Below, one piece after another: positions 1 through 30,825 of a stretch of 34,033 nucleotides of DNA. The DNA lies in assembly GCA_020718225.1 (NCBI GenBank), contig DYSO01000012.1, forward strand, positions 1-34,033, written 5' to 3'. Below the pieces are notes generated by a model that saw only the letters and a list, made by a program, of their open reading frames with translations, ran no database searches and was not told the origin of the DNA. Source of the DNA: Draconibacterium orientale (lineage in GTDB: Bacteria > Bacteroidota > Bacteroidia > Bacteroidales > FEN-979). The number at the start of each line of letters is the position of its first letter. The first letter of the stretch is position 1. The position numbers and the translations under genes were made by a program.

Positions 1-1620
1 GCATTCACGAATGCCAGCAGTAGCAAGTTCAACCGGGGTAACCGGCGCGAGCCGGGAGGTGGTAAGCAATATCTTTGATGGTTTCATCAATGGGTCCTTT
101 TTGATACGTGTTGCAAATTCAAGCCCGTTCATCCCGGCCATCCCGTACTCAATAACCACAAGATTGTAAGGTTTCCGGAGTTCTGCCTGTAGATGGATTT
201 TTTTTATCGCCTCCTCCGGGTCATTGCAAATGATCACATCGCTATCCCAACGTTCGAAATAATTCTGTAACAACTCTGCATGGCTTACATGAGTATCAAT
301 GATCAACACCTTCTTCCCTCTTAGCATATCTTTCATTAAATCGGGTGTTTCCGAATCCTTATATCGTTCAAAAATTATTGAAAAAGAAAATGTTGTTCCT
401 TCTCCGGGAGCGCTTTCCACATCAATCTGGCCATTCATCCGACCAATAAGATGTTTGGCAATGGCCAGTCCCAAACCTCCGCCACTGTGCTTTTTCGACT
501 CTGGTGAGTCGAGTTTTGAAAAAGAGTAGAACAGTTTTTTTATTCCCTCGGGGGAGATTCCGATACCTGTATCAACAATTGAAAAACGGACCCTGACGGT
601 ATCCTCGTCCCATGCCTCGAAACCAGCCTCGATTCTGATTTCTCCTTTTTCGGTGAATTTCAATGAATTATCGGTAAAAACTTTTAAAACCTGGCGTAAC
701 CTCACAGGGTCTCCTATCACTTCGGTAGGAATATTGGGATCCTGATACGAGAGAATTTCAATTCCCTTGTCCACTGCTTTATCGGCCAGGGAGGCTGCAA
801 TCTCCTCAACAACCTGAAAAATACTGAATGGTTTTTCATGGAACTCAACCTTACCGGCTTCGATTTTAGAAAATTCCATGATATCATTGAGGATCGACAT
901 CAGGTCGGTGGCCGATTTTACAATCACGTCGAGGTATTCATTCTGCTCCTGGTTCAGTTTTGATTGCCTCAGTATCTGGGCCATACCGACCACTCCGGCC
1001 ATGGGTGTATAAATTTCGTGCGACATGCTTGCCAGGAAAGAACTTTTTGCCTGACTGTCGGCAATCGACCGGTCCCGGGCTTCGACCAATTCCATTTCGG
1101 TCTTTTTCCGCTGATTGATATCGGCCAGTGTCCCGGCAATTTTCAACGGTTTTCCCAGAATGTCGGTCTCTACGATCTTGCCTTTATCACAAAACCATTT
1201 CCATTCGCCCGATTTGGTCCTAATGCGGTATTCTGCAAAATATTCAGGATGGTTTCCGTCAAGATGCCCCTTAATTTTGTCCATGACAAATTGGTAATCG
1301 TCAGGATGGATGAAATTGACAAGATCATTAAATGTGTGGTACATCTCCTCACCTTCCTCATATCCCAGGAGGCGGGACCGGTTTTTATCAAAATTCAATT
1401 TCCCGGTGACGTGGTCCCATGACCACCAGGAGAGCCCGCCGGCTTTGAGCGCCTGTTCAATGTGTCCGTTGACAGTGGATAACGATTGTTCGAGCTGTTG
1501 CAACTTTTCATTGGCTTCTTTATATAAATTGAATATCCTGTCCCATTGTTGTGTCGCAAGCCGCAGCTTTTGGTTCTCCGATTCTAATTCCTTGATTTTT
1601 TGTTGTAATTCCTCCGACAT
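1..1620 (-). CDS. Soluble PAS hybrid histidine kinase with degenerate receiver (3' end beyond window)
   Basis: I translated this frame by hand: 540 codons are open from an ATG at 1620 to the window edge, so the C-terminus is missing. Order of domains: an N-terminal coiled coil (about residues 1-60), a PAS_3/PAC sensor domain (about 62-178), a HisKA dimerisation helix with phospho-acceptor His201 in MSHEIYTPMAG, a HATPase domain (N box with Asn318, G1 VDTGIG 349-354, G2 GGGLGLA 380-386), and a receiver from about 436. There is no signal peptide or membrane helix, so it should sense a cytoplasmic cue. The receiver has Asp442-Thr443 in place of the acidic pair and Glu491 where the phosphorylated Asp belongs. 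The gene starts 17 bp after an ODP-like di-iron protein, a likely partner. The kinase assignment is firm; the ligand and output are unknown. Confidence 0.9.
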   Translation of the reverse strand, partial: MSEELQQKIKELESENQKLRLATQQWDRIFNLYKEANEKLQQLEQSLSTVNGHIEQALKAGGLSWWSWDHVTGKLNFDKNRSRLLGYEEGEEMYHTFNDLVNFIHPDDYQFVMDKIKGHLDGNHPEYFAEYRIRTKSGEWKWFCDKGKIVETDILGKPLKIAGTLADINQRKKTEMELVEARDRSIADSQAKSSFLASMSHEIYTPMAGVVGMAQILRQSKLNQEQNEYLDVIVKSATDLMSILNDIMEFSKIEAGKVEFHEKPFSIFQVVEEIAASLADKAVDKGIEILSYQDPNIPTEVIGDPVRLRQVLKVFTDNSLKFTEKGEIRIEAGFEAWDEDTVRVRFSIVDTGIGISPEGIKKLFYSFSKLDSPESKKHSGGGLGLAIAKHLIGRMNGQIDVESAPGEGTTFSFSIIFERYKDSETPDLMKDMLRGKKVLIIDTHVSHAELLQNYFERWDSDVIICNDPEEAIKKIHLQAELRKPYNLVVIEYGMAGMNGLEFATRIKKDPLMKPSKILLTTSRLAPVTPVELATAGIREC

Positions 1621-1637
1621 GGCTGATGGGTTTAAGG

Positions 1638-2426
1638 TTATTTTAACTCGGGATAGATCAAGTCAAGGCCGCATTTTAGGTGACGAAGATATTCCAATGC
1701 CTTGGGAATAAATTGTTTGGGAATGATCGATCCATGTTGTGGAAGGATCGCATCCAGTGCGAGATGACGGATTCTGTTGATAAACCCCCTGGCTGCCAGG
1801 TTGGAAGCCATATAATCTATATGAAAGAGGTTCATTTTTAATTCATGGACCGAAAAATCTTCTACAACCAAACGCCAGTCCATATCAATTGCAGCCCATA
1901 CATCGCCGGAAAACAAAAATTTCGAAGTCTCATCATAGGTTGCAAAGGCGCCCGGGGAGTGAAGAAATGGAGCTTCGATAAACCGGAGTTTTCGTCCGGA
2001 CGAAAAAAAGTGAAGGGGTTCCTCATTCACATTTACAAAGGTGTAGTCCAGCTTCCCGAAATGGGGCAGAAGGATATTGGTCCGTGTAGTTGTAAATACT
2101 TTCATGGAGGGGTTGATCCCGAGCCAGTCAACCATCGAAGCTGCCACATCCGGGTCCTGATGGCAGAGAATCATGCCTCCAACCTGTTCACAGGGCAGAA
2201 TCTGGTCTACCCGTTGTTTGACAAAGGAAAACTCACTACGTCCCCCCGGATCCACAAGCAGCGCTTCCGTTTCATCTGTGATAAGATAAACATTGATACG
2301 GAAAGCGCTGTCGTCAGGAACGCCCAGCCAGTAAACGGCGTGCTGGTCATCCTTGTAAAGAGGGGTCGGTTTTTCATAACGTTCCATAAAAGACTTGCCC
2401 AAAACAGTTAAATCGATTGTATCCAT
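1638..2426 (-). CDS. ODP-like di-iron metallo-beta-lactamase-fold protein (probable O2/iron/redox sensor)
   Basis: A 262-residue MBL-fold protein of the flavodiiron/ODP type. Candidate metal ligands are His89, Asp91 and Asp93 (motif HQDPD in place of HxExDH), His156 (LHSPGAF), Asp175 (FSGDVW) and His231 (LPQHGS). This resembles the di-iron domain of FprA-type flavodiiron proteins, but no flavodoxin domain follows. Stand-alone ODP proteins of this kind are known as iron/oxygen sensors that work with signalling proteins such as chemotaxis kinases. The genomic position fits a sensing role: it lies between cysH (15 bp upstream) and a PAS histidine kinase (17 bp downstream) on the same strand. An enzymatic role (oxygen or NO reduction with a separate flavodoxin, or a hydrolase) is the alternative. 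The family call is good; the sensor role is inferred. Confidence 0.82.
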   Translation of the reverse strand: MDTIDLTVLGKSFMERYEKPTPLYKDDQHAVYWLGVPDDSAFRINVYLITDETEALLVDPGGRSEFSFVKQRVDQILPCEQVGGMILCHQDPDVAASMVDWLGINPSMKVFTTTRTNILLPHFGKLDYTFVNVNEEPLHFFSSGRKLRFIEAPFLHSPGAFATYDETSKFLFSGDVWAAIDMDWRLVVEDFSVHELKMNLFHIDYMASNLAARGFINRIRHLALDAILPQHGSIIPKQFIPKALEYLRHLKCGLDLIYPELK

Positions 2427-2441
2427 ATTCAGAAATTTTGT

Positions 2442-3140
2442 TTATTGATGAAGACCACATTCCTTATACTGTGGCAATTCCCACCACCATCGACCCGCCC
2501 TGACATCCTCGCCGGGAGCAATGGCACGGGTGCACGGATAACAACCGATGCTCGGATACCCTTGGTGATGAAGGGGGTTGACAGGGATATGGTTTATTTC
2601 AATATGGGCCCACAATTCTTCCTGCGTCATTTCAAGCAGTGGGTTAAGTTTGACAATGGCGTGGTTTTGGTCCCACTCCAAAAGCTTTAAATCTTTCCGT
2701 GTCACCGACTGCTCCCTGCGTAATCCGGTGATCCAAACCGACATCCCCTTTAATGCCCGTCTCAGGGGTTCAATTTTCCGGATGTGGCAACACAATTTCC
2801 GGTTTTCCACACTTTCATAAAACAGGTTAACCCCTTTATTGTTCACCATCTCTTCAACTTGTGAGGCTTCCGGAAAAAAAACAGCCATTTTTATCCCATA
2901 TTTTTTCTCAGTGATATCCAGTAAATCATAGGTTTCCTGAAACAACCTGCCCGTATCCAAAGTGAAGAGAGAAATTTCCAGACGGCGATGGGCAATAAGA
3001 TATGTAATCAATTGATCTTCAATGCTAAGGCTGGATGAAAAAACAACGGAACCCCGATATTCGCTGGCAAACCACGCCATCACGTCAACCGGAGTAGCGT
3101 TTTCAAATTGTTGGTTCCACACGTCAATTCGTTCTTTCAT
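2442..3140 (-). CDS. cysH: Adenylyl-sulfate (APS) reductase, CysH family, Fe-S type
   Basis: A 232-residue PAPS/APS reductase: SSSLSIED (35-42) and LFTLDTGR (58-65) form the nucleotide/sulfate-binding PP-loop region, WITGLRREQS is near 136-145, and the catalytic cysteine is Cys228 in the C-terminal ECGLH motif. Two extra cysteine pairs, Cys117-Cys118 and Cys200/Cys203 (GCYPCT), are those that bind a [4Fe-4S] cluster in APS-using plant/bacterial-type enzymes and are absent from E. coli-type PAPS reductases. It should reduce APS to sulfite with thioredoxin or a similar donor in assimilatory sulfate reduction. No cysD/N/I neighbours are visible. It is the first gene of an apparent operon with the ODP-like protein and hybrid kinase. 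I saw no clear TAnnTTTG box upstream of its ATG. Confidence 0.92.
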   Translation of the reverse strand: MKERIDVWNQQFENATPVDVMAWFASEYRGSVVFSSSLSIEDQLITYLIAHRRLEISLFTLDTGRLFQETYDLLDITEKKYGIKMAVFFPEASQVEEMVNNKGVNLFYESVENRKLCCHIRKIEPLRRALKGMSVWITGLRREQSVTRKDLKLLEWDQNHAIVKLNPLLEMTQEELWAHIEINHIPVNPLHHQGYPSIGCYPCTRAIAPGEDVRAGRWWWELPQYKECGLHQ

Positions 3141-3229
3141 AGGGTAGTGATGACAATGATCAAAGGGAAATAGTTTGTGAATTTAATAAAAAGTAAGATG
3201 GAAAAGCAACTTTTCACTGTGGAATAAAT

Positions 3230-3237
3230 TAATTTTG
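3230..3237 (+). promoter_or_regulatory. Predicted -7 box upstream of mpl
   Basis: TAATTTTG matches the Bacteroidetes TAnnTTTG element, 16 bp before the mpl ATG, implying a very short leader. No convincing TTTG -33 partner was seen. Confidence 0.45.
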
Positions 3238-3253
3238 ACCAAAATTTCTTCTC

Positions 3254-4609
3254 ATGCACCTCTATTTTATTGCTATTGGTGGCAGCGCCATGCACAACCT
3301 GGCCATTGCATTGTATAAAAAAGGGTATCAGATAAGCGGTTCCGATGATGAAATTTTTGAACCGTCAAAATCACGGCTGGCCTGCTATGGGTTGCTCCCA
3401 CAGGAACAGGGTTGGGATGCATCCCGAATTACAACGCAACTGGACGCCATCATCCTGGGGATGCATGCAAAATCGGACAACCCCGAATTGCTGAAAGCGA
3501 AAGAGCTTGGATTGAAAATATATTCTTACCCCGAGTTTCTGTACGAGCAATCGAAAGATAAACGGCGGGTCGTTATTGGCGGAAGCCATGGAAAAACAAC
3601 CATCACGGCCATGGTGCTCCATGCGCTGCGACAGGCAAACATCGAATGCGACTACCTTGTCGGGGCACAGCTCGAAGGGTTCGATGTAATGGTTAAACTC
3701 TCTGCCACTGCACCCGTAATGATCTTCGAAGGAGATGAATACCTCACCTCCCCCATCGATCCACGGCCTAAGTTTCACCTTTATAAACCAGATATTGCTT
3801 TACTTAGCGGTATCGCCTGGGACCACATCAATGTATTTCCCACCTTCAACAACTATGTGGACCAATTCAGGATTTTCATCCAACAGGTTACACCAGGAGG
3901 AAGCCTTATCTGGTGCGATTCAGACAAGGAACTTCAGCAAATCTGCAGAGGATGCCGCGATGACCTATCGTTACTCCCTTATACCCTGCCCGAATATGAG
4001 ACACAAAACGGTAAAACCTTTATCATTTCCGAAGGACATTCCTTTCCGATCCTTGTATTCGGAAAACACAACTTATTGAATATGAACGGAGCCAAAATGG
4101 TATGCAACCTATTGGGAATCAATGATCGCGCTTTTTTTTCAGCCATGGAGACCTTTACCGGCGCCGCGAAACGTCTTGAGAAGGTTATTGAAACCGGTAC
4201 CTGCATTGTTTATAAAGATTTTGCCCATGCCCCATCCAAGGTTGAAGCAACCCTGAAGGCTGTCAGGGAACAGTACCCCGGCCATAAAATTGTGGCCTGT
4301 CTTGAACTGCATACTTACAGCAGTCTGAGCAGGGAATTTCTGGACCATTATCGGGGGAGTATGGACGCCGCTGATGTCGCCATTGTATATTTTAATCCCC
4401 ATGCCCTGGCTCTGAAACGGTTACCGGAAATCACCGAGGAACAAATCAGGGATGGATTTGGGAAGGAAAACCTGGAGGTTTTCAATGACGCTCAACGCCT
4501 GATGGACCGGTTACGAAGTATTACCAGTGAAAATATGGTTTATCTGATGATGAGTTCGGGAAATTTCGACGGAATCGACCTGCACTCGGGTTTTTCAGCC
4601 ATTCATTGA
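3254..4609 (+). CDS. mpl: UDP-N-acetylmuramate:L-alanyl-gamma-D-glutamyl-meso-diaminopimelate ligase
   Basis: A 451-residue Mur ligase of the Mpl class. The N-terminal Rossmann segment reads [12 protein letters not shown] (7-18), the ATP loop is GGSHGKTT (109-116), and [10 protein letters not shown] follows in the central domain. Length and motifs fit Mpl rather than MurC. It joins recycled murein tripeptide directly to UDP-MurNAc in the cytoplasm, bypassing MurC, MurD and MurE. The NlpC/P60 peptidase at 16620 could act in the same recycling route, although it is not linked. The start is the ATG just after the -7 box. The gene is convergent with rho and its last 15 bp overlap the end of rho, so no separate terminator fits between them. 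Confidence 0.93.
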
Positions 4610-13992: not shown

Positions 13993-16398
13993 TTGTCAAC
14001 ATTATTTGACCTTCCCCAAGGGGCATCGGGAATAATTACAAAAGTAAGGGGACGTGGCGCATTCCGCAAACGCATCACGGAGATGGGTTTTGTTAAAGGC
14101 AAGAGGGTCACAGTGATTAAATCTGCTCCGTTGCAAGATCCTGTGGAATATAAAATTTTGGGATACCATGTTTCATTACGTCATAGCGAGGCACGGTTAA
14201 TCGAGATCGATGAGGCGGCTGATGACCTGAATCCGTTGGTGTATTCAAATCAACAATTGGCTTTCAGGGAACTTTTCCCACAGGGAACAACCGGAATTTC
14301 GGATGGGAAAAAAGAGAAGGTGATTGATGTTGCCCTGGTTGGAAATCCGAATTGTGGAAAGACAACCCTGTTTAATGTTGCTTCAGGTTCCCATGAAAGG
14401 GTCGGTAACTTCAGCGGGGTTACAGTCGAATCAAAAAATGCAAAATTCAAAAAATCCGGTTACACATTCAATATCACAGATTTACCAGGCACATACTCCC
14501 TCACCGCTTATTCGCCTGAAGAATTATTTGTACGGCAACACATCTTTGAAAAAGTACCCGATGTGGTTGTCAATGTCATCGACGGTTCCAATCTGGAACG
14601 AAACCTTTTTCTCACGACCCAGCTCATCGATATGGATATCCGGGTTATCATTGCCCTGAACATGTACGATGAATTCGAGGATACAGGCCATTTACTCGAT
14701 GTGGATGCCCTGGGTCAATTGCTCGGAATTCCCGTTGTTCCAACCATCGGGTCAAAAGGGATTGGCATCCAAACGCTCTTCGACCGGATCATTGATGTTT
14801 ACGAAGATCGTGATCCCGTGGTAAGGCATGTCCATATCAATTATGGATCCGACCTCGAAAAAGCCATGCATAAGATACAGGATGTCCTGTGGAAAGACCA
14901 GGGCCTGACCGACCGGATTTCATCCAGATATCTCAGCATCAAACTTCTTGAAAGAGATGAAGAGATACATGATGCATTGCGGTCATCCACCCAATGTGAA
15001 GCTGTTTTAAGTATTGTCAGTAATGAAATTCATCATCTTGAATCCAACTTCCGGGAAGATGTCGCTACTCTTGTTGCGGATGCCAAGTATGGGTTTATTG
15101 CCGGGGCGCTGAAGGAAACCATGACCCCCAGCAGGAAAAAGCAACCGGATAAAACCACCAGCGAACGCATTGACCACTTTCTGACCCACCGGTTTTTCGG
15201 GTTTCCGATTTTTCTCTTTTTCCTTTGGTTGATGTTCCAGGCAACATTTACGCTTGGCGATTATCCAAAGAGCTGGATTGAAGGGGGGGTATCCTGGATT
15301 GGCGAACAAACAACAACGCTTTTACCCGGCGGGCCCGTGCGGGATTTATTGGTCGACGGGATAATCAATGGTGTTGGGAGTGTTGTCGTTTTCCTTCCCA
15401 ATATTTTAATTCTGTTTTTTTTAATATCCATCATGGAAGATACGGGTTATATGGCCCGTGCTGCTTTTATTATGGATAAACTGATGCATAAAATCGGCCT
15501 CCATGGTCAGTCGTTTATACCGCTCATTATGGGGTTCGGTTGTAATGTCCCTGCCATTATGGCCACACGGACGCTCAAAGACCGCAACGACCGGCTACTC
15601 ACCATGCTGATCAATCCGTTTATGTCGTGCAGCGCGCGGTTACCGGTATATATATTGATCGCCGGGATAATTTTTCCAAAATATGCGGGCAGTATCATCT
15701 TTGGCCTCTATCTGACCGGAATTTTATTGGCTGTGCTGGTATCTGTGGTCTTAAAAAAAACCCTCTTTAAAAATAAAGGCGCCCCTTTTGTTCTCGAATT
15801 ACCACCTTACCGTATGCCGACTTTACGGGTTAGTTTACGACACATGTGGGAGAAAGGGGGCCAGTATCTTCAAAAAATGGGGGGGGTCATCCTTATTGCA
15901 GTTATTCTGATATGGGCGCTTGAATATTTTCCCGCAGGAGGCAAAGTCAGCCGTGATGAACGGTTAAAACAATCGTATATCGGGAAAATAGGGAGGACTA
16001 TTGAACCGGTAATTGCCCCGCTTGGGTTCGACTGGAGGATGGGAATCAGTTTGATTACAGGGGCCGCTTCCAAGGAGGTCGTGGTAAGTACCATGGGTGT
16101 TTTATACGGAACAAACCGTTACGATGAAAAAATCGGGGAACGGAACCTCAACACGGAACTTAAAGAAGCTACTTATCAGGATGGAATAAAAAAAGGTCAG
16201 AAAATATTTACCCCGCTCACAGGGATCTCTTACCTGCTTTTTATTCTGATTTATATGCCATGCGTCGCTGTTGTGGCAGTGGTAACACGGGAATCCGGAA
16301 GCTGGAAATGGGCCCTCTTCCTGATAACCTATACAACGGCGCTTGCCTGGATTATTTCTTTTACGGTTTACCAGGTTGGAAGCTTGATATTTATTTAA
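13993..16398 (+). CDS. feoB: FeoA-FeoB fusion, ferrous iron transporter
   Basis: An 801-residue protein. A FeoA/SH3-like domain (about 1-75, MGFVKGKRV) is joined by a linker to the FeoB G domain: G1 GNPNCGKTT (117-125), G2 around Thr144 (SGVTVE), G3 DLPG (163-166) and G4 NMYD (223-226). The C-terminal half holds the Gate-type membrane segments, including MGFGCNVPAIMATRTL and the second conserved pore segment near ASKEVVVSTMGVLYG. It imports Fe(II) across the inner membrane. The start codon is TTG, since an in-frame stop lies two codons upstream and the next ATG would cut into FeoA. FeoA-FeoB fusions are known in this phylum. A small Cys-rich partner gene follows after 1 bp. Confidence 0.96.
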   Translation: MSTLFDLPQGASGIITKVRGRGAFRKRITEMGFVKGKRVTVIKSAPLQDPVEYKILGYHVSLRHSEARLIEIDEAADDLNPLVYSNQQLAFRELFPQGTTGISDGKKEKVIDVALVGNPNCGKTTLFNVASGSHERVGNFSGVTVESKNAKFKKSGYTFNITDLPGTYSLTAYSPEELFVRQHIFEKVPDVVVNVIDGSNLERNLFLTTQLIDMDIRVIIALNMYDEFEDTGHLLDVDALGQLLGIPVVPTIGSKGIGIQTLFDRIIDVYEDRDPVVRHVHINYGSDLEKAMHKIQDVLWKDQGLTDRISSRYLSIKLLERDEEIHDALRSSTQCEAVLSIVSNEIHHLESNFREDVATLVADAKYGFIAGALKETMTPSRKKQPDKTTSERIDHFLTHRFFGFPIFLFFLWLMFQATFTLGDYPKSWIEGGVSWIGEQTTTLLPGGPVRDLLVDGIINGVGSVVVFLPNILILFFLISIMEDTGYMARAAFIMDKLMHKIGLHGQSFIPLIMGFGCNVPAIMATRTLKDRNDRLLTMLINPFMSCSARLPVYILIAGIIFPKYAGSIIFGLYLTGILLAVLVSVVLKKTLFKNKGAPFVLELPPYRMPTLRVSLRHMWEKGGQYLQKMGGVILIAVILIWALEYFPAGGKVSRDERLKQSYIGKIGRTIEPVIAPLGFDWRMGISLITGAASKEVVVSTMGVLYGTNRYDEKIGERNLNTELKEATYQDGIKKGQKIFTPLTGISYLLFILIYMPCVAVVAVVTRESGSWKWALFLITYTTALAWIISFTVYQVGSLIFI

Positions 16399-25401: not shown

Positions 25402-25433
25402 TTACGATTTACGATTTACGATTTACGATTTAC
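25392..25433. repeat. Heptamer array 2: six GATTTAC units between porX and tsaE
   Basis: Six tandem units (one starts AATTTAC) run from 25392 to 25433. The porX stop codon (25430-25432) is inside the last unit and the tsaE reading frame opens inside the array. In the minus direction every frame of the array contains a TAA each 21 nt, so no ORF can read through it. Confidence 0.95.
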
Positions 25434-26986
25434 AGTTTGGGTTTCAAATTTATAAATGGCACCAGTAATTCTTCCATAGAGATTCCACCATGCTGAAAGG
25501 TGTTTTTATAATAGTTTACATAGTGGTTATAGTTGTTCGGATAGGCAAAAAAATCATCGTTCCGGCAAAAAACAAACGAAGAACTTACATTGCCCCGGGG
25601 AAGGAATATATCGGCCGGATTTTTTACCTCAAAGGCTTCAGTATGTTCGAATTTCAATGCTTTACCTGTTTTGTACCTCAGATTGCTGTTGGTATTCCGA
25701 TCGCCTAATATTTTAACCGGATTGGTAACGCGAATGGAGCCATGGTCGGTAGTTATTGCAACATTTACCTCTTTTCCGGCCAGGAATTTAAAAATGTCGA
25801 GCAGGGGAGAATGCCGAAACCAGCTTACAGTGAGCGAACGGTAAGCTTTTTCGTCGTCGGCAAGTTCCCTGATAATCTCCATCTCCGTACGGGCATGAGA
25901 AAGCATATCGACAAAATTGTAAACGATGACATTCAATTTATTAACCATCAGGTTGGGCATTAATTCAACCAGTTTCTTTCCGTAGGTCTGATTAAGGACC
26001 TTATAATAGGAGTACTTGATATCACGTCCATACCGCCTGAGCAATTCTCCCAATAACTCATTCTCGTTATTGTTCTTTGTTCCCTCCTCATCCTCATTGA
26101 CCCAAAGTTTCGGGTACTTTTTTTCAATTTCAGTCGGTAATAGGCCGCCAAAAAGTGAATTTCTGGCATATTGCGTAACCGTTGGAAGGATGCTGTAATA
26201 AATATCCTCGCGATCGACCCTGAAAAACTCTTCAACGGTGGGTTGTAATACTTTCCACTGATCAAACCTCAGATTATCAATCAGGATGACAAACAAGGGT
26301 TTGTTTTCGTTCAACAGGGGAAATACCTTTTCCTTGATCAGGTTGTGCGATTGGACCGGATGGGGGGTGGTTTTTCCGTTAACCCAACCGGTATAGTTCT
26401 TTTCAACAAACTTACTGAATACCTGGTTGGCTTCATCTTTCTGCATTTTCAATACCTGGTTCATCCCCTCATCGCCCGATTGGTCAAGTTTCAGCTCCCA
26501 ATGGGTGATTTTTTTATAAATTTCCACCCACTCTTCAAAGTTTAGCCTGTTGCTGATCTCCATACCAATGGTACGAAATTCCTGCTGGTAGCGATGGGTT
26601 GTTTTCTCGCTTACAAGTTTTTTATTCTCCAGGTTTTTTTTCAGGGAGAGCAAAATCTGGTTTGGCTTCACCGGCTTGATCAGATAATCAGCTATGTTTG
26701 AACCGATTGCGTCCTCCATGATGGTCTCTTCTTCACTTTTGGTTATCATAACCACAGGCAGATTTGGAAGGTCTGTTTTGATCCTTGCGAGGGTTTCAAT
26801 ACCCGACAATCCCGGCATTTGCTCATCCAGAAAAACGATATCCAGCGGTTTGGACTTAATGATTTCGAGAGCATCGTACCCGTTGTTGACCGTAGTTACA
26901 TCATATCCCTTTTCCCGTAAAAAAATGATGTGTGGCTTCAGCAGGTCAATTTCATCATCAACCCATAAAATCGCGACTTTATCCAT
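25430..26986 (-). CDS. porX: PorX: response regulator with PglZ domain, type IX secretion regulator
   Basis: A 518-residue protein. The receiver domain (1-120) has Asp10, Asp11, the phospho-acceptor Asp54 (FLDEQMPG), Thr82 and Lys104. A helical linker follows, then a PglZ alkaline-phosphatase-like domain: Asp237 (LIDNLR), the probable nucleophile Thr271 (PTVTQYARN), Asp360 and His364 (FVDMLSHAR), Asp414-His415 (TTDHGS) and His500 (FQHGG). This architecture is that of PorX, the regulator that with PorY and SigP controls type IX secretion, and whose PglZ domain can cleave cyclic oligonucleotides. Its presence suggests a type IX secretion system in this organism. It heads a co-directional run (tsaE, ald, aroB, aroA) and is divergent from the HD-domain gene. 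Confidence 0.94.
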   Translation of the reverse strand: MDKVAILWVDDEIDLLKPHIIFLREKGYDVTTVNNGYDALEIIKSKPLDIVFLDEQMPGLSGIETLARIKTDLPNLPVVMITKSEEETIMEDAIGSNIADYLIKPVKPNQILLSLKKNLENKKLVSEKTTHRYQQEFRTIGMEISNRLNFEEWVEIYKKITHWELKLDQSGDEGMNQVLKMQKDEANQVFSKFVEKNYTGWVNGKTTPHPVQSHNLIKEKVFPLLNENKPLFVILIDNLRFDQWKVLQPTVEEFFRVDREDIYYSILPTVTQYARNSLFGGLLPTEIEKKYPKLWVNEDEEGTKNNNENELLGELLRRYGRDIKYSYYKVLNQTYGKKLVELMPNLMVNKLNVIVYNFVDMLSHARTEMEIIRELADDEKAYRSLTVSWFRHSPLLDIFKFLAGKEVNVAITTDHGSIRVTNPVKILGDRNTNSNLRYKTGKALKFEHTEAFEVKNPADIFLPRGNVSSSFVFCRNDDFFAYPNNYNHYVNYYKNTFQHGGISMEELLVPFINLKPKL

Positions 26987-28406: not shown

Positions 28407-29441
28407 ATGGAATTCACTGCCACTCAGATCGCCGGGTTATTGAACGGCGTTATTGAAGGTAATCCCGATATTAAGGTTTCAAATTTATCAAAAATTGATG
28501 AAGGGCTGCCCGGAACGCTCACTTTTTTAGCAAATCCCAGGTACAACCATTATCTTTATTCCACCAAAGCTTCCATTGTTATCGTAAACCAGGATTTTAT
28601 CCCTACACAACCTGTCGGGGCTACTTTGATACGCGTAACCAATGCCTATTCATCTTTTGCAAGACTGATGGAGATCTATTCGGAAACAACAACCCACCAG
28701 GGAGCGATCTCCCAGAAATCATCGGTTGCCCTTTCTGCCTCCATCGGTAAAGATGTTTCAGTGGGTGATTTTTCATATATCGGTGAACGTGTTACCCTTA
28801 AAGATAATGTATCCATCCATCCCCAGGTATATATTGGTCCCGATGTTACCATTGATGAAAACACCATAATTTACCCGGGCGTTAAGATTTATCCCGGTTG
28901 TACTGTCGGAAAAAACTGTGTCCTTCATTCCGGAGTGATTATTGGTTCCGATGGATTTGGTTTTGCTCCTCAATCGGACAACAATTATCAGAAAATCCCA
29001 CAATTGGGGAACGTAGTGCTGGAAGATGATGTGGAGGTTGGCTCCAATACGACCATCGACCGGGCCACTCTTGGTTCGACCGTCATCCGAAAAGGGGTAA
29101 AATTAGACAACCTGATCCAGATAGCACACAATGTGGAGATTGGCCAAAACACAGTTATCGCGGCACAATCGGGAATTTCAGGGTCAACCCGGATTGGAAA
29201 GAATTGCATGATCGGGGGGCAGGTCGGTATTGTCGGGCACATCATCATCGCCGATAACGTAAAAATTGGCGCCGGATCAGGCGTTGAAGCAAGCATCCTG
29301 CAGGAGGGCGCTGTCATGCTTGGAGCGCCTGCCATCGAAATAGGAAAAGCACGCCGTAACTTTATCCATTGGCGCAAACTTGATGAAATCGTAAAAAAAG
29401 TCTATTCCATTGAAAAATTGGTAAACAAAACGCATGAGTGA
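28407..29441 (+). CDS. lpxD: UDP-3-O-(acyl)glucosamine N-acyltransferase
   Basis: A 344-residue enzyme of lipid A synthesis that adds the N-linked acyl chain. The N-terminal uridine-binding domain (1-95; LTFLANPRY 38-46) is followed by a left-handed beta-helix of hexapeptide repeats (about 105-310), with catalytic His241 in IQIAHNV and a C-terminal helix. I chose the ATG at 28407; an upstream TTG at 28374 extends the frame by 11 residues without family support. TAACTTGC at 28362-28369 is a poor promoter candidate. Its last 8 bp overlap the start of lpxC-fabZ (ATGAGTGA), so the two are translationally coupled. Confidence 0.95.
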
Positions 29442-30825
29442 AAAACAAAAAACCATCCGGGAACCCGTAAACATAGCCGGTGTTGGCTTACATACAGGCA
29501 AAGAGGTAACCATTACATTTAAACCCGCCCCCGAAAATTATGGCATTAAATTCCGCCGCACCGATGTCTCCTCCAATACGCTCGTGGATGCTGACGTTGA
29601 TAATGTTGTGGATACATCCCGTGGGACCAGCATCGAGCAGGACGGAGTCCGGATAGATACCACAGAACACGTTCTGGCAGCGTTGACGGGACTTGAAATC
29701 GACAACATCCTGATTGAGATGGACCAATCGGAAACGCCCATTCTTGACGGCAGTTCCCGGTTTTATGTTGAAGCCCTTCAAACAGCAGGGATCGTGGAAC
29801 AAAAAGCGCTGCGAAAATATTTTGAACTCACCTCGAATATCACGCATGTCAACCCTGAAAAAAAGGTTGAAATGATAGCCATCCCATCCAATGAGTTCAG
29901 GGTTTCCGTGATGATCGATTATGAATCCAAAGTCCTCCAGTCACAAAATGCTACCCTCGACCACATCTCACAATTCAAAACCGATTTTGCCACCTGCCGG
30001 ACCTTTGTGTTCCTCCACGAACTTGAGTATTTGCTAAACAACAACCTGATCAAAGGAGGCGATCTGAGCAATGCCATCGTCTTTGTTGACAGGGTTATTT
30101 CGCGCCAGGAGCTCGACCATCTTGCACAATTATTTAATAAACCAAAAGTTGAGGTTTTAAAAGAGGGTATCTTAAACAACCTCGAACTTCAATATCCCAA
30201 TGAACCGGCCCGCCATAAATTACTGGATATCATTGGCGATCTGACCCTTGTCGGGATGCCTTTGAAAGCCCATATTATTGCTACCAGGCCCGGCCATTAT
30301 TCCAATATAGAGTTTGCGCGGCTTATCAAAAAGCATCTGAAAAAGGAAAAGCGCACCATGGATATTCCCAAATTCGATCTGAACAAAACCCCTCTATACA
30401 ACATCAACCAGATCAAACGCATTCTCCCCCACCGGCCCCCTTTTCTTTTTATTGACAGGATCCTTGAAATGGGCAACGATTATGTGGTAGGATTGAAGAA
30501 TGTGACCATGAACGAATCATTTTTTGTCGGTCACTTCCCCGATGAACCCGTTATGCCCGGGGTAATACTGATCGAAGCCATGGCACAAACCGGAGGGATA
30601 TTGGCCCTGAGCACCGTTGACGATCCACAGAACTATACGACCCTTTTCGTCAAAATCGAAAGTGTAAAATTCCGCCAACGCGTCGTGCCCGGAGATACCG
30701 TTGTTTTTTTCAATCAGCTTAACGGACCGATACGCCGTGGATTGATCAGTATGAAAGGATTGGCCTATGTCGGGAACAAGGTCGTAATGGAAGCCGAAAT
30801 GATGGCCCAGATTCAACGCAAATAA
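29434..30825 (+). CDS. lpxC-fabZ: Bifunctional LpxC deacetylase / FabZ dehydratase
   Basis: A 463-residue natural fusion typical of Bacteroidetes. Residues 1-305 are UDP-3-O-acyl-N-acetylglucosamine deacetylase, the committed step of lipid A synthesis, with zinc ligands His79 (TTEHVLAAL), His261 and Asp265 (HKLLDIIGD) and catalytic His288 (GHYSN). Residues about 318-463 are the (3R)-hydroxyacyl-ACP dehydratase, with His367 ([12 protein letters not shown]) and Glu381 (IEAMAQ). Joining them couples supply of the hydroxyacyl-ACP used for lipid A with fatty-acid elongation, both competing for the same substrate. It overlaps lpxD by 8 bp and precedes lpxA by 18 bp. Confidence 0.97.

Follow-up and report, generated by a model that had tools for sequence, protein, structure and literature searches.

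At the start of the window (the whole stretch of 34,033 nucleotides that was analysed), the genes for an APS reductase (cysH), a stand-alone di-iron protein of the ODP family and a soluble hybrid histidine kinase lie in one presumed operon, and in the reading that we prefer, to which we give a probability of about 0.5, the ODP carries two irons, binds O2 and influences the adjacent kinase in trans. The ODP and the kinase form a gene unit even in those members of this Bacteroidales family that lack a chemotaxis system, which suggests that another signalling circuit has taken over a sensor familiar from chemotaxis. A contig in a source genome of 3.27 Mb in 275 contigs begins with the window, and the features of the locus are these:

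1..1620, minus strand: soluble hybrid histidine kinase, N-terminal coil-PAS_3-HisKA-HATPase-receiver 1 part; reading frame open at the window edge, the contig itself beginning at window base 1 (Pfam, orthologue alignment, AF2 model of orthologue L003)
1638..2426, minus strand: ODP, stand-alone metallo-beta-lactamase-fold di-iron protein (Pfam, PDB matches, AF2 model, ligand table)
2442..3140, minus strand: cysH, thioredoxin-type APS reductase (TIGR02055, 2.1e-78)
3141..3253, no strand: divergent intergenic region cysH/mpl, 113 bp, with putative promoter (gene coordinates)
3254-4609: mpl, divergent from cysH (gene coordinates)

The kinase is truncated because the contig start coincides with window base 1. 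Lying 15 bp upstream of the ODP gene, cysH heads the presumed three-gene operon cysH-ODP-kinase; the three genes are presumed to be co-transcribed, and the operon promoter should, judging by gene coordinates, lie within 3141..3253. An initial annotation of this DNA had described the ODP and kinase reading frames as they are found here and had overlooked cysH at the head of the operon.

The ODP and its predicted metal site

The window ODP (262 aa) is a true stand-alone ODP. It belongs to Pfam family ODP (PF19583; 1.6e-59, 201.5 bits against a cut-off of 27.2), has no flavodoxin domain and no further domain by Pfam, and finds its closest solved structures in the ODPs of T. maritima (6qrq, 1.4e-42) and T. 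denticola (6qnm, 1.3e-40), flavodiiron enzymes being far weaker matches in the structure database than either. For its AlphaFold2 model (pLDDT 79, pTM 0.84), the ten top Foldseek matches are all ODPs, with TM of about 0.8, and the best is again 6qrq (E 3e-23, TM 0.80). With the two solved ODPs, to each of which it is 36% identical, the window ODP has in common the Pfam family, the fold and a ligand pattern that includes the Gln of PQHG, and all three are without a flavodoxin domain; with flavodiiron proteins (ROO, FprA, FlRd) it shares the metallo-beta-lactamase di-iron fold, but it has neither their H-x-E-x-D-H motif nor their flavodoxin domain. The initial description of a metallo-beta-lactamase-fold protein that lacks a flavodoxin domain and ends 17 bp before the kinase agrees with both Pfam and the reading-frame coordinates, and the flavodoxin partner that might have made the protein an ordinary reductase is not part of it: an ordinary flavodiiron protein is encoded separately in the same genome, with GHG and H-x-E-x-D-H at the corresponding places.

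The predicted ligands of the window ODP are H89, D91, D93, H156, D175, Q230 and H231, which fit the pattern H-x-D-x-D-[V/I/L] ... H ... D ... QH; the residues HDDV, H, D and QH agree with both solved ODPs. All of these except Gln230 had been named beforehand, at the right positions and matching the ODP pattern. Gln230 (PQHG) is probably the seventh ligand, since in the T. maritima ODP the Gln of motif 5 stands in place of the third His of motif 2 (PMC7785958); the pattern with Gln beside the last His (QHG) is common to ten ODPs from elsewhere and both solved ODPs. Whether close homologues keep the metal ligands, a question that the initial annotation had raised, is answered by the retention of its six in 26 of the 28 ODPs found in the window's family. 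The ODP of genome G009 has lost H89, H156 and Q230 and that of G028 has lost H156, the kinase being still present in both and intact in the former; the damaged-site ODP of G009 lies at L033:1685-2563, next to that intact kinase.

Distribution, synteny and joint inheritance

When about 85,000 species genomes were scanned, 17 close relatives came to light. By title they are MAGs of Bacteroidales or Bacteroidetes, save two with the labels Draconibacterium (also Bacteroidota) and Alphaproteobacteria; in both, the locus is syntenic with those of the remaining relatives. Whole-genome search placed the ODP in 28 genomes, which belong to three genera within the family of the window; 38 other families (one sample each) gave no true ODP, 295 genomes drawn from the order gave none beyond that of the window's genome, and viral contigs held no ODP relatives, while a draw of 395 Bacteroidota genomes gave four further, more distant ODPs. 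The same kinase lies directly downstream in 25 of the 28 family ODPs, so that the adjacency is beyond chance and, on the point that the initial annotation had wished to see surveyed, extends well outside the window's genome; the two genes share a strand, with gaps of about 9-39 bp in most loci and larger ones in a few. Upstream, cysH is found in every family ODP locus that has that side on its contig. ODP-less relatives carry an empty site with the order rho / mpl / cysH / FtsX-type permease, in which the permease gene is the immediate neighbour that cysH faces; this makes the ODP-kinase pair an insert, or a lost unit, behind an older cysH gene.

Among 43 family genomes, 25 have both genes, three the ODP only, one the kinase only and 14 neither (Fisher p 1.2e-7, a value that ignores relatedness), and the sole kinase-only case is a 3.3-kb contig ending inside the kinase. 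The whole-genome kinase search covered 31 of the 43 genomes, the remaining counts resting on the locus, and the orthologous kinase was absent from all ODP-less genomes searched, bar that one contig-edge case. On a tree built from Mpl, Rho and CysH, the ODP state shows six changes, which can be read as a single gain of the ODP-kinase pair and about five losses of both genes together. The kinase goes with the ODP in about 3.9 of 4 independent pairs, four pairs being too few for significance, and much of the synteny is accounted for by vertical inheritance within one family. In their branch-wise rates, the ODP and the kinase domains did not covary more than controls did, and an apparent correlation of kinase coil decay with the damaged ODPs of G009 and G028 (pairwise-distance robust z about 5) was discarded, having vanished on a fixed tree and not exceeding control genes.

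The three ODP-only genomes (G005, G011 and G014) form one clade in which the kinase was lost cleanly and all ODP ligands were kept, the ODP evolving at a normal rate in G005 and G011, the two measured; the ODP thus has some function without the kinase, and probably a further role that does not need the adjacent kinase. This retention, and the very different partners with which ODPs are paired elsewhere, would suit an ODP that is a multi-partner sensor, which has several outputs, the kinase among them, and to which another kinase or regulator listens in trans in some lineages. Against such a sensor, no second partner was identified and the kinase is never kept after ODP loss in a scorable genome; we hold it to be the best placed of the alternatives and still unlikely.

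Quite unlikely, in our estimation, is an ODP that works as an enzyme, either a hydrolase or one reducing O2, NO or peroxide, and is co-transcribed with a kinase sensing something else via its PAS domain. The fold and most of the ligands are as in flavodiiron enzymes, the ODP survives without the kinase and the kinase survives beside the damaged sites of G009 and G028, all of which an enzyme would accommodate; yet the protein is without a flavodoxin or other electron-supplying domain, the genome already has its separate flavodiiron protein, Pfam and fold group the window ODP with sensor ODPs and not with enzymes, and the gene is gained and lost jointly with the kinase. A sulfur-assimilation unit, in which cysH, ODP and kinase jointly protect or regulate APS reduction, is improbable in spite of the constant place of cysH as first gene, because the same cysH site exists in relatives without ODP and kinase (where cysH, being in place without them, was there first), cysH stands in other families without ODP, other ODPs are seen without an annotated cysH neighbour, and the occurrence of cysH in nearly all family members, with or without ODP, and in many other families makes its operon membership weak evidence for a sulfur function. 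As the main functional partner of the ODP, cysH was likewise rejected on account of the ODP-less sites.

The hybrid kinase and its proposed route of signalling

In the window, the kinase has the Pfam domains PAS_3 (77-164), HisKA (191-256), HATPase (303-415) and a partial receiver (438-538), and its complete orthologues, of ~695-703 aa, comprise coil, PAS_3, HisKA, HATPase, receiver 1 and receiver 2, the last lying beyond the window's contig. H200 of HisKA is invariant among the orthologues, the phosphoacceptor Asp of receiver 1 is often Glu, and the Asp and Lys of receiver 2 are intact in all complete orthologues. The parts of a hybrid histidine kinase (HisKA His, HATPase, and a receiver with Asp and Lys) are present, receiver 2 by way of the complete orthologues. 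No membrane segment was seen (over 19 residues, the hydropathy of the window kinase reaches 0.98 at most), and no Hpt or output domain was found by Pfam or in the orthologues, of which L003 gave an AF2 model with a pLDDT of 78. The membrane-free PAS-HisKA-HATPase-receiver architecture proposed at the outset is hence borne out by Pfam and hydropathy, to which the complete orthologues add a second receiver. With soluble hybrid histidine kinases (BarA/ArcB-like core), the ODP-linked kinase has HisKA, HATPase and receivers in common; unlike that core, it is without a transmembrane or Hpt part, its receiver 1 is often without the phosphoacceptor Asp, and a separate di-iron protein would replace the fused sensor.

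The ODP of T. denticola is an oxygen sensor with a genetic link to a sensorless receptor, and this receptor modulates CheA (PMC7666581, PMC6978683). Its partner is thus a sensorless chemoreceptor acting on CheA, whereas the adjacent partner of the family ODP is a soluble hybrid PAS kinase; no sensorless MCP gene was found beside the family ODPs, the neighbours being cysH, the kinase and an FtsX-type permease. Also unlike the chemotaxis-coupled ODP, several carriers of the family ODP are without a CheW domain: it is absent from five genomes that have both ODP and kinase, namely G001 (100% complete), G009, G017, G018 and G025, so chemotaxis cannot be the route there and cannot be the general route of the ODP-kinase pair. 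In the window's genome, a CheA fragment and two MCP-type proteins are encoded, and chemotaxis may be a route there. The proposal of the initial annotation, that the ODP is the input of a kinase outside chemotaxis, is favoured by the adjacency and by the five carriers without CheW; its notion of a dedicated input is weakened by the ODP-only clade and by the damaged sites of G009 and G028.

For the preferred reading, that of an ODP acting in trans on its neighbouring kinase, the following steps may be proposed. By analogy with the ODPs of T. maritima and of T. denticola, for the latter of which a stable peroxo form is reported, the ODP most likely carries two irons and binds O2; being a soluble protein distinct from the kinase, it would alter the activity of the kinase, probably via the N-terminal coil and PAS region; and within the kinase phosphate would move from His200 to receiver 2, then to a free HPt protein and to a response regulator encoded elsewhere. 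We infer iron and O2 binding, kinase contact, the direction of the effect and the downstream targets alike. Somewhat short of even, in our judgement, are the chances of the fuller picture, a two-component phosphorelay that certain Bacteroidales have, including some with no chemotaxis genes. In it, a detachable di-iron ODP would serve as the O2/Fe(II) sensor and would act in trans on a soluble hybrid kinase at its coil/PAS end. If true, the peroxo-di-iron sensor would be a general plug-in input for different signalling machines, here an ordinary two-component kinase. The compact soluble pair is suited to direct tests of whether a metalloprotein can place a histidine kinase, encoded apart from it, under O2/iron control, and the natural variants (no kinase, damaged metal site) offer built-in controls. 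The sole free-standing HPt found in the window's genome lies at L075:7636-8025; it was rejected as a dedicated kinase partner because its relatives occur in ODP-less genomes, so that it is not specific.

ODP partners elsewhere and other genes of the window

The ODPs of another Bacteroidota class mostly adjoin a 218-263-aa protein of no assigned family, and conserved neighbours of ~260 aa are encoded at L042:7913-8695, L043:8634-9413, L045:8437-9213, L080:2420-3187 and L081:4815-5606. The three of these neighbours that were tested had no Pfam match, and their identification as a sensorless chemotaxis protein was abandoned, a degenerate chemoreceptor tip being discernible by eye only and profile comparison not being significant. 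In L045 the ODP is followed by a REC-HisKA-HATPase gene, and L044:6254-8014 encodes a receiver-ODP fusion of 586 aa, with an unassigned stretch between REC and ODP, that is flanked by two PAS kinases. The ODP gene overlaps a chemotaxis-protein gene on a Pseudoalteromonas plasmid and is followed by a short GGDEF gene on the plasmid of a Fusobacteriota strain; the ODP of an Acinetobacter plasmid has no evident signalling partner among its neighbours.

The initial annotation was too strong in regarding the combination as undescribed. According to the passage of PMC7319448 that summarises Muok et al. 2019, different signal-transduction genes also share operons with ODPs, and ODPs occur as fusions with signalling domains, so far as that summary goes; the coupling of ODPs to non-chemotaxis signalling genes is to this extent an idea already published in general terms. 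The ODPs of that summary and the family ODP have in common a genetic coupling to signalling outside receptor-type operons, and the operon of cysH, ODP and PAS hybrid kinase is not named in the summary.

Three further genes of the window were noted. A FeoA-FeoB fusion, an 801-aa ferrous iron transporter, is encoded at 13993-16398 (+), and the gene at 25430-26986 (-) encodes a receiver + PglZ-domain protein, which we take to have the architecture of the PorX-type regulators of Bacteroidota. At 29434-30825 (+), between LpxD and LpxA-type genes, LpxC is fused to a FabA-like (FabZ-type) domain.
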